From: Halorubrum lacusprofundi ATCC 49239
GTDB lineage: Archaea; Halobacteriota; Halobacteria; Halobacteriales; Haloferacaceae
Assembly (NCBI RefSeq): GCF_000022205.1
Contig: NC_012029.1
Span: 434,001-498,000 of the forward strand
Length of the DNA: 64,000 nucleotides
Direction: 5' to 3'
Below, piece after piece: positions 8,997 to 56,840 of this stretch. The translations under genes and the position numbers were made by a program. The stretch's first letter is position 1. Every line of letters begins with the position of its first letter. Under the pieces are notes generated by a model that did not search any database, was not told where the DNA came from, and saw only the letters and a list, made by a program, of their open reading frames with translations.

Positions 8997-12123
<3,127 letters not shown>

Positions 12124-15255: not shown

Positions 15256-15390
15256 ACGGCCGTTCCTCCCACCCGCGCGCTGATAAGGGTTTAGCAACGC
15301 TCCTCGAAGACGACGACCGGAGCGAGGACGACGCCGTGACCCACGCGGAACCGTGACCCACGTGCTGTGACCTACGCGGAGTCACCGCGG

Positions 15391-15470
15391 CGAGGCTGGG
15401 GCTTTGGCGGTGTTCGCCGTCGGTCCGTCGTCGACGATTTATAAGCAAGCGGCTGGGGCTTTGGAAAGGT
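15391..15470 (-). repeat. Partial structured-repeat copies (B): two 5' modules, minus strand
   Basis: On the minus strand two head-to-tail copies of the family's 5' box CCAAAGCCCCAGCC occur (plus positions 15451-15464 and 15394-15407), separated by a TTATAAAT TATA-like box (plus 15438-15445). The 3' half of the element (CTTTGAGTCCC and later hairpins) is absent. The rest of the 345-bp spacer from 15256 to 15600 has only a short direct repeat of GTGACCCACG and no gene. Confidence 0.7.
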
Positions 15471-15600
15471 TCTCGGCGTCACCGACGGCGACGACGGAGA
15501 GAGGAACCGCGAACACGAGAATCCATCCAGATCCACCAATAAAACACGCATCGTATCGGTCCCGACACGATTTAGGTGACCCGCCCGCAACGGGTCGGTA

Positions 15601-18662: not shown

Positions 18663-20572
<1,910 letters not shown>

Positions 20573-46239: not shown

Positions 46240-46595
46240 AGTTATAAGTGGTCGTTGCTCTCGGCGGATCAGCGAGGAACGCCTCCAAAGCCCCAGCCGC
46301 TCGCTTATAAACGTCTGACCGCGGATCGATGACGAACACCTCTAAAGCCCCCGCCGCGACGACTCGGGGGCCTTGCTGCGCGCCTCACTCGGTCGCTACC
46401 GCTCCCTCGTTGCGGTGCTTGCTGCGGCCACCTTCGTCGTCGCGGCTGCCCCTTTGAGTCCCGCCCCACACCGCAACCGCAGCCTCACGCCTCCCCAGCC
46501 TCGTCGCTCACTTCGTTCGCGACTCCCTCGCACGCGCTCCTCGTGGCCTGTCGGCCACTCGGAGGCGTGCGCCACCGCACAGCTATTTATAAAGA
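46240..46595 (+). repeat. Structured repeat copy E (complete)
   Basis: Two 5' modules (TATA-like TTATAA at 46242 and 46305; boxes CCAAAGCCCCAGCCGC at 46285 and a CTAAAG variant at 46342) lead into a stem: positions 46353-46363 pair perfectly with 46436-46446, capped by a 35-nt block (46383-46417) that copy F shares exactly. Then CCCCTTTGAGTCCC, the CCTCCCCAGCCTCG block, a second stem GTCGC/GCGAC (46503-46507 with 46519-46523), a third stem near 46531-46570, and terminal TTTATAA. The 395-bp spacer holds nothing else; the kdgK stop follows at once. Confidence 0.85.
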
Positions 46596-54119: not shown

Positions 54120-54480
54120 TCGATCGTTTATACGTGGTTGCTGGCAGATCGACGGTGACCACCTCCAAAGCCCCAGTCGCCGAGGACGGCGCACGCTCGC
54201 TGTGCTCCTCACTCGGTCGCTACCGCTCCCTCGTTGCGGTGTCGCCGGCGGCAAAGCCGCCGGCTGCCCGTGGCGCGTAGCGCCACGCTGCTTACGTCAC
54301 CTGCGCCGTCCTCGGCGACTGCCCCTTTGAGTCCCACCCGCCCGCCAACCGCACAGCACCTCACTCCTCCCCAGCCTCGCCGCTCGCGCCCGAGGGGCGC
54401 TCGCGGCGTCCCTCGCACGCGCTCCTCGCGACCTGTCGGCCGCTCGGAGGCGCGCGCCACCGCACAGCACCGCAAGGCGT
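54120..54480 (+). repeat. Structured repeat copy F (complete, no 3' TATA)
   Basis: A TATA-like TTTATAC (54127-54133) is followed by CCAAAGCCCCAG. The variable stem pairs 54175-54193 with 54302-54320 in a perfect 19-bp duplex, and inside it lie hairpins such as GCCGGCGGC-AAA-GCCGCCGGC (54243-54263) and GTGGCGC/GCGCCAC (54270-54286) and the 35-nt block 54207-54241 that copy E shares exactly. CCCCTTTGAGTCCC (54322-54335) follows, then a GCCGC/GCGGC stem (54379-54383 with 54403-54407). The element ends near 54480, 80 bp before purL; no gene lies in 54080-54560. Confidence 0.87.
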
Positions 54481-54560
54481 GTCGCCGTCGATGTCGTGTC
54501 GAACCACACGAACGTGCACATAGAAAAGCATTAGAACCGGCTCGATAACCACGTAAGTGA

Positions 54561-56840
54561 ATGAGTCTGTCCGAGCCGGACCACGAGCTCGTCGTCGCGG
54601 AGCTCGGCCGGGAACCGACGGCGGCCGAGGTCGCGCTGTTCGAGAACCTCTGGAGCGAGCACTGCGCGTACCGCTCCTCGCGGCCTCTGCTGTCGGCGTT
54701 CGAGAGCGAGGGCGACCAAGTCGTCGTCGGCCCCGGCGACGACGCGGCGGTCCTCGCGCTGCCCGAGCCGGACGCCGCGGACACGCCCGCGGCGGAGCGC
54801 GACGCCGACGATTACGGCGATCAGTACGTCACCTTCGGCGTCGAGAGCCACAACCACCCCTCCTTCGTCGACCCGGTCGACGGCGCGGCCACCGGGGTCG
54901 GCGGCATCGTCCGCGACACGATGTCGATGGGCGCGTACCCGATCGCCCTACTCGACTCGCTGTACTTCGGCGGCTTCGACCGCGAGCGCTCGCGGTACCT
55001 CTTCGAGGGCGTCGTGGAGGGCATCTCCCACTACGGCAACTGCATCGGGGTGCCCACCGTCGGCGGCAGCGTCGCCTTCCACGACGGGTACGAGGGGAAC
55101 CCCCTCGTCAACGTCGCCTGCGTCGGTCTCACGAACGAAGACCGGCTCGTGACCGCGACCGCACAGGAGCCCGGCAACACCCTGATGCTCGTCGGCAACG
55201 GCACCGGTCGCGACGGGCTCGGCGGCGCCTCCTTCGCCTCTGAGGACCTCGCCGAGGACGCCGAGACCGAGGACCGCCCCGCGGTGCAGGTGGGCGACCC
55301 CTACGCCGAAAAGCGGCTGATCGAGTGCAACGAGGCGCTGGTCGACGAGGACCTGGTCCTGTCGGCCCGCGACCTCGGCGCGGCGGGCCTCGGCGGCGCC
55401 TCCTCCGAACTCGTCGCGAAGGGCGGGCTCGGCGCCCGACTCGACCTCGACAGCGTCCACCAGCGCGAGCCGAACATGAACGCGATGGAGATCCTGCTCG
55501 CCGAGAGCCAAGAGCGGATGTGCTACGAGGTCGCGCCGGAGGACGTGGCGCGCGTCGAGGCGCTCGCCGAGCGGTTCGACCTCGGCTGCTCCGTCATCGG
55601 CGAGGTGACCGACGGGAACTACGTCTGCGAGTTCGCGGGCGCCGGGAAGGGCGAGGACGATGCGGACGACTCCGACGCGGAGTCCGAGGTCGTCGTCGAC
55701 GTGGACGCCGAGTACCTCGCCGACGGCGCCCCGATGAACGACCTCGCGAGCGAGTCCCCGACCCAGCCTGACCGAGACCTCCCGGACCCCGAACCGTCCC
55801 TCGACGAGGCGGTCGAATCGGTCGTCTCGGCCCCCTCGACCGCGAGCAAGCGCTGGGTGTACCGCCAGTACGACCACGAGGTCGGTGTTCGAACCGCGAT
55901 GAAACCCGGCGACGACGCCGCAATCATGGCGATCCGAGAAACAGCGTCGACCGACGCGGCCGACCTCGCCCCGGCCGATCAGGGCGTCGGTCTCGCGCTC
56001 TCGTCGGGCGCGAACCCGAACTGGACTGAGACCGACCCCTACGAGGGCGCCCGCGCCGTCGCCCTCGAAAACGCGACCAACCTCGCCGCAAAGGGCGCGG
56101 TCCCGCTGGCCGCAGTCGACTGCCTCAACGGCGGCAACCCGGAGAAGCCCGAGGTGTACGGCGGCTTCAAAGGGATCGTCGACGGGCTCGCCGACGCCTG
56201 CGCCGACCTCGACGCCCCGGTGGTCGGGGGCAACGTCTCGCTGTACAACGACAGCGTCGAGGGGCCGATCCCGCCGACGCCGACCCTCGCGCTGATCGGC
56301 ACCAGAAAGGGGTACAACGCGCCGCCTGCCGCCCTCGACGCCGACAGCGCGGGCGACTCAGAACTCCTACTGATCGGCGCCGGCGGCGCCGACGGCGGCG
56401 CGCTCGGCGGCTCCGAGTACCTCGCGCAGGCCGGGGGAACAGACCGGTTCCCGACGCTGCCGGACACGGAGACCAAGAGTCTTGCCGACCGCGTCGCGTC
56501 GCTCGCAGCGGTCGCCCGCCACGAATCGACGTTCGCGACCCACGACGTGAGCGACGGCGGGCTCGCCGTCGCGCTCGCGGAACTCGTGACTGACGCGGCG
56601 GGCGCCGACGTGACCCTCCCCGACCGCGTGGCCGTCTTCGAGGAGACGCCCGGCCGCCTCGTCGTCCAGACGACTGACCCCGAGGCAGTCGCCGAACTCG
56701 CCGGCGAGCTACCCGTTCTCCGGCTCGGTGAGGTGACGACCGACGGGGCGCTCTCGCTCTCAGTCGGCGACGACGAGACCGCGTTCGACGCCGACACGAT
56801 CCGGGAGCTCCGGGGCGTCATCGACCGCGAACTCGCCTGA
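54561..56840 (+). CDS. purL: Phosphoribosylformylglycinamidine synthase II (PurL, small type)
   Basis: 759 residues. Fourth step of purine synthesis, ATP-dependent amidation of FGAR with PurQ and PurS supplied elsewhere. FGAMS-type motifs include [16 protein letters not shown] at the N-terminus, the PGDDAAV block, GDKLTKIP-like [24 protein letters not shown] and GGNVSLYND. Two repeated AIR-synthase-like halves are visible. The ATG at 54561 follows the structured repeat directly, with no TATA box close by, so expression may depend on the leader or the repeat. Confidence 0.95.

Follow-up and report, generated by a model that had tools for sequence, protein, structure and literature searches.

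Copy E and other copies in the window

The DNA analysed here, called the window, is a 64-kb stretch of Halorubrum lacusprofundi, and copy E lies in it beside a PfkB gene that also adjoins it in the closest species (Table 1). The two A units of copy E form a 37-nt direct repeat (81%, spacing 57), and its stem1 extends outward through pairing of AAAG (46344-46347) with CTTT across a C-rich internal loop. A second complete copy, copy F, lies upstream of purL, and the window also holds a third complete copy, a degenerate copy and a remnant. An earlier note on this DNA had located the boxes and stems of E and F, with a stem1 of 11 and 19 bp and a stem2 of GTCGC/GCGAC and GCCGC/GCGGC, respectively, and these were recovered as described, as was the TATA-like TTATAA, which lies 44 nt ahead of CAAAG; its CCAAAG box, however, belongs to the tandem unit, and the CAAAG/CTTTG base of stem1 is also paired. 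The degenerate copy is interrupted between its two A units by a match to the Rfam family sot0042, which probably represents the 3' end of a transposase-less IS1341/TnpB element. Elsewhere in the window, two apparently identical 424-aa OrfB_IS605/Cas12f1-like proteins are encoded about 8.4 kb apart (10475-11746 and 18924-20195, minus strand); they have the same Pfam matches and scores and are apparently a recent duplication of a TnpB-type element.

Table 1. Copies of the repeat and their parts in the 64-kb window.
Feature	Coordinates	Strand	Details
Copy E, complete core	46240-46595	boxes +	two 5' units A, stem1, box C, stem2, hairpin D; bordered by TTATAA 46242-46247 and TTATAAA 46587-46593; predicted folding strand is the complement
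E unit A1	46242-46300	+	TTATAA ... CCTCCAAAGCCCCAGCCGC
E unit A2	46305-46357	+	TTATAAA ... CCTCTAAAGCCCCCGCCGC
E stem1	46353-46446	+	outer arms 46353-46363 GCCGCGACGAC / 46436-46446 GTCGTCGCGGC, 11 bp
E box C	46447-46506	+	conserved, unpaired, C-rich; GGG/GGGG tracts on complement; CCCCTTTGAG 46449-46458, CCTCCCCAGCCTCG 46490-46503
E stem2	46505-46523	+	GTCGC/GCGAC
E box D	46524-46583	+	terminal hairpin and GCCACCGCACAGC 46571-46583
Copy F	54127-54468	+	upstream of purL; one unit A (54151-54180)
F stem1	54175-54193/54302-54320	+	19 bp, perfect
F nested double-hairpin insert	about 54241-54290		in stem1
F box C	54315-54381	+	CCCCTTTGAG 54322-54331, CCTCCCCAGCCTCG 54366-54379
F stem2		+	GCCGC/GCGGC
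F box D	54409-54468	+	GCCACCGCACAGC 54456-54468
Third complete copy	32197-32860	+	five tandem A units, 54-bp spacing (32223-32466), then stem1
Third copy, 3' part	32599-32841		box C 32599-32666; several nested hairpins; box D 32787-32841; TTTATAA
Degenerate copy	26179-26610	+	A 26211-26237; A 26441-26463; box C 26457-26503
sot0042 match	26245-26413		128.7 bits
Remnant copy	15385-15475	-	two A units only (15394-15421, 15449-15472)

Distribution and architecture of the family

Copy E matches 52 pieces of its own genome (best non-self E-value 9e-65), all 52 Halorubrum genomes searched contain the family, and the 20-nt core of box C, with at most 3 mismatches, occurs at 70 sites in the H. lacusprofundi genome compared with 2 for the backward pattern, so that chance is excluded for the family. 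All 70 sites lie on the main chromosome (2.735 of 3.69 Mb), for which the probability is 7.5e-10 under length-proportional spread. Across the haloarchaeal class, matches were found in 131 of 194 sampled genomes and in 49 of 65 genera, while none of the 53 genomes from outside the haloarchaeal order matched, the sole matches among the 60 genomes sampled in the phylum being haloarchaea. Box counts per genome range from 5 to 164 in Halorubrum and are mostly 0-25 elsewhere, with 86 boxes in one non-Halorubrum genome (plasmid coordinates match Halobaculum sp. XH14); the reversed-pattern control gave 0 in every genome. A few haloarchaeal plasmids carry copies, and the viral contigs and phage records searched contained no match to the family.

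According to profile searches, almost all copies have their modules in the order A(n)-stem1-C-stem2-D. In a set of 198 non-identical Halorubrum copies with all three boxes, 1-5 A units precede stem1, most commonly at a spacing of 57 and next of 54; the unit is about 54-57 bp long, usually opens with TTATAA and ends with the box CCAAAGCCCCAG. At the base of stem1, CAAAG pairs with CTTTG across the internal loop CCCC/CCC; within the arms, which include the conserved 5' segment GCTGCGC, lies an apical hairpin whose short pairs are interrupted by TC/TC mismatches. The A-C gap is 75-95 nt in most of the 198 copies and longer where small double-hairpin cassettes are nested in the stem. Such cassettes, for instance CCGGCGGC-GCCGCCGG plus GTGGCGC-GCGCCAC, sit at varying stem sites (54241-54290 and 32667-32790 in the window), and 58 of the 198 copies have a long gap. 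L189:4802-5039 (minus) differs from every other aligned copy in having the interior of stem1 inverted, presumably through recombination of its two arms, and in L020:8465-8961 the stem2 region contains about five tandem copies, each of about 43 bp, of CTCTCTTCGGTCGCCCACATCGCTCGCGGCGTCCCTCGCGCGG. In other genera, a unit may stand alone, be joined by a C-D-like part or face a second one in an inverted tail-to-tail pair with 18-27 nt between them, and the base of stem1 is GAAAG/CTTTC, a compensated change relative to CAAAG/CTTTG in Halorubrum; none of the copies read from outside Halorubrum showed A units.

Covariation and persistence at fixed loci

The consensus fold was obtained with RNAalifold from an alignment of 70 copies (A1) and comprises 46 pairs, of which 34 show double changes. 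Paired cells amount to 95.4%, compared with 32-47% when the partners are slid by 1-3 columns, and none of the covariation shuffles attains any observed measure. A phylogeny-aware null was also applied (FastTree tree, Fitch states, substitutions reassigned along branches, 40 replicates), under which 13 column pairs are significant, namely 10 of the 46 consensus pairs and 3 beside helix columns. Similarly, the 120 paired Halorubrum arms comprise 66 distinct arm sequences. A single consensus fold is thus backed by real covariation, as for a structured nucleic-acid family. With significant covariation and copies in genomes far beyond H. lacusprofundi, the dispersed, structure-conserving family proposed in the earlier note has strong support.

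The purL-upstream copy is decisive for covariation because it was chosen by synteny and not by similarity. Among the 30 genomes from which a locus was retrieved, about two thirds keep it at this place and in this orientation, and D then ends some 100 to 150 nt ahead of the start codon. At 16 purL loci the core is readable by a strict pattern, and in 14 of these at least 10 of 12 outer positions are paired, while the paired arms of the orthologues have a mean identity of 69% and a minimum of 33%; the unpaired box C is 82% identical, compared with 64% for the flank. The remaining purL loci are rearranged, empty (L088, L089) or reduced to a remnant (L080); in L080, all that is left of the element is four tandem copies of GCCACCGCAC, the terminal bases of box D. 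Halorubrum copies share loci between species, and those of the window look vertically inherited. The family therefore appears to be an ancient, previously unrecognised, non-coding structured repeat that is kept by selection.

Folding strand

Although the pairs next to them covary freely, the TC/TC mismatches hardly vary, and neither does the CCCC/CCC internal loop. Tandem G.A mismatches are stable and U-C mismatches are not; since TC/TC reads as tandem G.A on the complement, this points to the complement as the folding strand. The complement also folds better in 60 of 60 copies with RNA as well as DNA parameters (-137 vs -113 kcal/mol), and flanking controls show no strand bias (-121 vs -119). 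Wobbles at consensus pairs are of the complement type in 66 cases and of the plus type in 27 (bootstrap ratio 1.5-3.9), and those in the outer stem1 arms of Halorubrum in 41 and 12, respectively, both counts being uncorrected for relatedness; outside Halorubrum the bias in the outer arms is not significant (15 vs 11). A cruciform would use both strands equally, and the bias thus indicates a single strand. The apical loops of the complement are GNA in 23 of 32 triloops and GNNA in 19 of 22 tetraloops, with C-G closure in 51 of 54. These features point to the G/A-rich complement as the folding strand in Halorubrum, and the plus strand named in the earlier note was the wrong one.

With regard to the chemical nature of the folded molecule, tandem G.A pairs and GNNA loops are also found in RNA. 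GNRA is the usual RNA tetraloop and makes up only 4 of the 19 GNNA apical loops. It has been reported that d(GCGAAGC) forms an exceptionally stable DNA mini-hairpin with a sheared G-A pair (PMC6582339). The loop types argue for DNA indirectly, and tail-to-tail units offer no space for two promoters; on both counts there is a slight lean towards DNA rather than RNA. The G tracts of the complement (GGGYGGG, GGGG and GGGG), a candidate intramolecular G-quadruplex, are conserved across genera. An L7Ae-type k-turn was considered and is unsupported, the G.A tandems lying in symmetrical 2x2 loops without a 3-nt bulge. The orientation of copies along the chromosome gave no replication or replichore signal (31 runs vs 34.6 expected, z = -0.9).

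Gene context and possible transcription

Called genes, which come from a simple codon model and are approximate, overlap 2 of the 198 copies, and the element is thus non-coding. Among the 184 Halorubrum copies with both neighbours called, 78 are in convergent settings, 52 and 27 in the tandem settings and 27 in divergent ones; the few copies examined in other genera are more often upstream of genes. Neighbouring stops are about 50-70 nt away and neighbouring starts about 100 nt, so that promoters are spared.

Another possible, though rather doubtful, explanation is a non-coding RNA with many gene copies, which would be read from the complement (minus) strand, start upstream of D and act through its fold, either by protein binding or within a 3' UTR or an intergenic transcript. 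The covariation, the tandem G.A mismatches and the wobble bias fit such an RNA equally well, while the rarity of GNRA loops counts against it. Its main argument is the archaeal-promoter-like sequence beyond D: TTTATAA is found there in many copies, and a second AT-rich box follows at a fixed spacing of about 32 nt (57 motif matches in the range 28-34 nt), with TATTTAAA on the minus strand; however, stem1-only copies have no evident TATA box, and the 18-27 nt between the putative 5' ends of tail-to-tail units leave no room for two promoters. In addition, the D-side gene ends toward the element in 105 of 184 cases, and read-through would then place the element in a 3' UTR, yet copies occur in all orientations relative to genes.

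Ends, mobility and origin

In 17 of the 198 Halorubrum copies, all of them long, an inverted GATAGCGGGAGTGGGTATAGC flanks both sides at fixed distances, compared with 1 per side in the reversed-flank control; E and F have no terminal inverted repeats (TIRs), and these ends are absent from the whole window. In genome G130 (genus g40), L292 and L297 are 97.4% identical over 416 bp, have unrelated flanks and end in GGYGGTGTTTAGTT; the TIR of this genus is GGCGGTGTTTAGTT. Target duplications of 8 bp, read by eye from the flanks, are TCCTCGAT and ATCCGGTG (L292/L297) and GAAAGAAT (L296). At four loci of the genus (L292, L296, L297, L301) the units are paired as twins, with inverted ends of 14 bp and direct repeats of 8 bp. 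The terminal repeats, together with the near-identical g40 copies and their duplications, show that units of the family have moved as MITE-like elements, and the origin of the family is probably mobile. The hairpin-based mobile element that had also been proposed is well supported as an origin, although the window copies seem to have been inherited vertically; neither E nor F nor any other Halorubrum copy gave a target duplication, and no recent transposition was seen within Halorubrum. Pattern searches with the element ends found no partner transposase. Sequences like the outer ends of long copies occur at L314 and L315 (TTCGGCTCTGTTGAAATCC) near small genes that are PIN- or HTH-like, as judged by eye from translations, and are not transposases. 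E and F have the core but not these ends, as expected if the core is selected, a contrast that is partly by construction because copies were collected by core, the purL locus excepted.

Template-switch repair of quasi-palindromes is an established mechanism, and E and F might be functionless relics of a transposon whose arms match because template switching or conversion copies one arm onto the other. The mobile origin, the inverted stem1 interior of L189 and the occurrence of nested insertions and losses all suit such relics, but correction of this kind should erase the TC/TC mismatches and the CCCC/CCC loop, both of which are nearly invariant, and it predicts no strand bias among the wobbles; nor does it account for the conservation of unpaired box C above its flank in the purL orthologues. 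Arm-to-arm copying without selection is therefore disfavoured, and we consider this explanation unlikely. Most improbable is the proposal of the earlier note, namely plus-strand RNA synthesis from the TTATAA of the individual A units, for although TTATA lies 26 nt ahead of the first A box in 58 of the 198 copies, which is the commonest distance and a plausible one from TATA box to start, the plus strand folds less well than the complement in all copies sampled, its wobbles are the rarer type, the invariant UC/UC mismatches would have no structural reason, and the A units were confined to Halorubrum among the copies read.

The explanation favoured here, with evenly balanced confidence, is that of an ancient haloarchaeal family of MITE/REP-like elements, mostly immobile now and kept for a strand-specific hairpin. 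E and F would be fixed, eroded members of these non-coding hairpin repeats, which after insertion would have been inherited vertically at fixed intergenic sites, with selection preserving the fold of one strand, the G/A-rich complement. Single-stranded, the complement would fold into a long hairpin made of short Watson-Crick segments and intervening tandem G.A mismatches, with a G(N)A or G(NN)A loop and C-G closure at its apex; this hairpin would lead into a linker rich in G tracts and then two further hairpins. A putative hairpin-recognising protein would act on this strand, and the folded molecule may be, with slight preference, DNA exposed in replication, transfer or an R-loop, rather than RNA.

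Comparison with known systems

Rfam contains no match for copy E at gathering score, with only chance-level matches at E-values up to 10; the sot0042 family (RF02656) is represented in the window by an insertion into the degenerate copy, and not by E itself. The open-access literature, searched by sequence and by description, contains no account of the family. On this coverage the family is provisionally considered new; the nearest kinds each lack or only partly share a defining feature. The modular intergenic BOX and ERIC repeats of bacteria resemble the present family in that they too fold as a whole and carry an internal unit of variable number, but they differ in host domain and anatomy. 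The REP, BIME and REPIN sequences are similarly dispersed, intergenic, long-lived and high in copy number, and form imperfect hairpins, single or in inverted pairs (PMC3116915, PMC3733652); however, REPs are 20-40 bp long, while stem1 here is about 100-125 nt, and their GTAG/CGTC foot is absent, the foot here being (C/G)AAAG...CTTT(C/G). According to a 2018 survey, the only TnpA-Y1 subclass in Archaea is of the IS200 type and not RAYT (PMC6006769).

The MITEs, PATEs and SMRs of Haloquadratum walsbyi are also short, non-coding and haloarchaeal, and some copies here likewise have TIRs and target duplications; palindromes are the targets of SMR-A elements, as the stems here are of smaller inserts (PMC3119063). 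Set apart by description, the present family differs in its compensatory evolution at genus-wide fixed loci, strand-specific mismatches and class-wide spread. As regards MITE features, TIRs were seen in the 17 long copies and in genus g40 but not in the window, and 8-bp duplications at L292, L296 and L297 but for no Halorubrum copy; PATEs, by contrast, are defined by having neither TIR nor target duplication, and some copies here have both. The class I intergenic repeats of HF2, a virus of Halorubrum, are 56-58 bp long with a TATA box and the motif TCTTTAAGTC (PMC8707807), but this motif is not unit A, and no phage record or viral contig matched the family. A resemblance of the CTTTCAGTCCC box to CRISPR-repeat ends was set aside, as the box is single or forms one inverted pair.

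Significance

For annotation it matters that Rfam has no entry covering these copies and that they may be mistaken for genes, the 191-aa minus-strand ORF at 54209-54784 being one spurious example. Intergenic repeats do not usually show covariation of this strength at a fixed locus, and this one extends across an archaeal class in which no RAYT-type hairpin system has been reported; it bears directly on the open question of whether the abundant hairpin repeats of prokaryotes act as parasites or as parts of the cell. A binding protein is predicted from the conserved, strand-specific mismatches, and the copy upstream of purL lends itself to genetic tests. Tentatively, a haloarchaea-wide element may have been co-opted for a chromosomal function at about 70 sites, with a putative protein recognising the strand-specific G.A hairpin as single-stranded DNA or as RNA. 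If true, this would be, as far as literature and database searches show, the first co-opted hairpin system described in Archaea.
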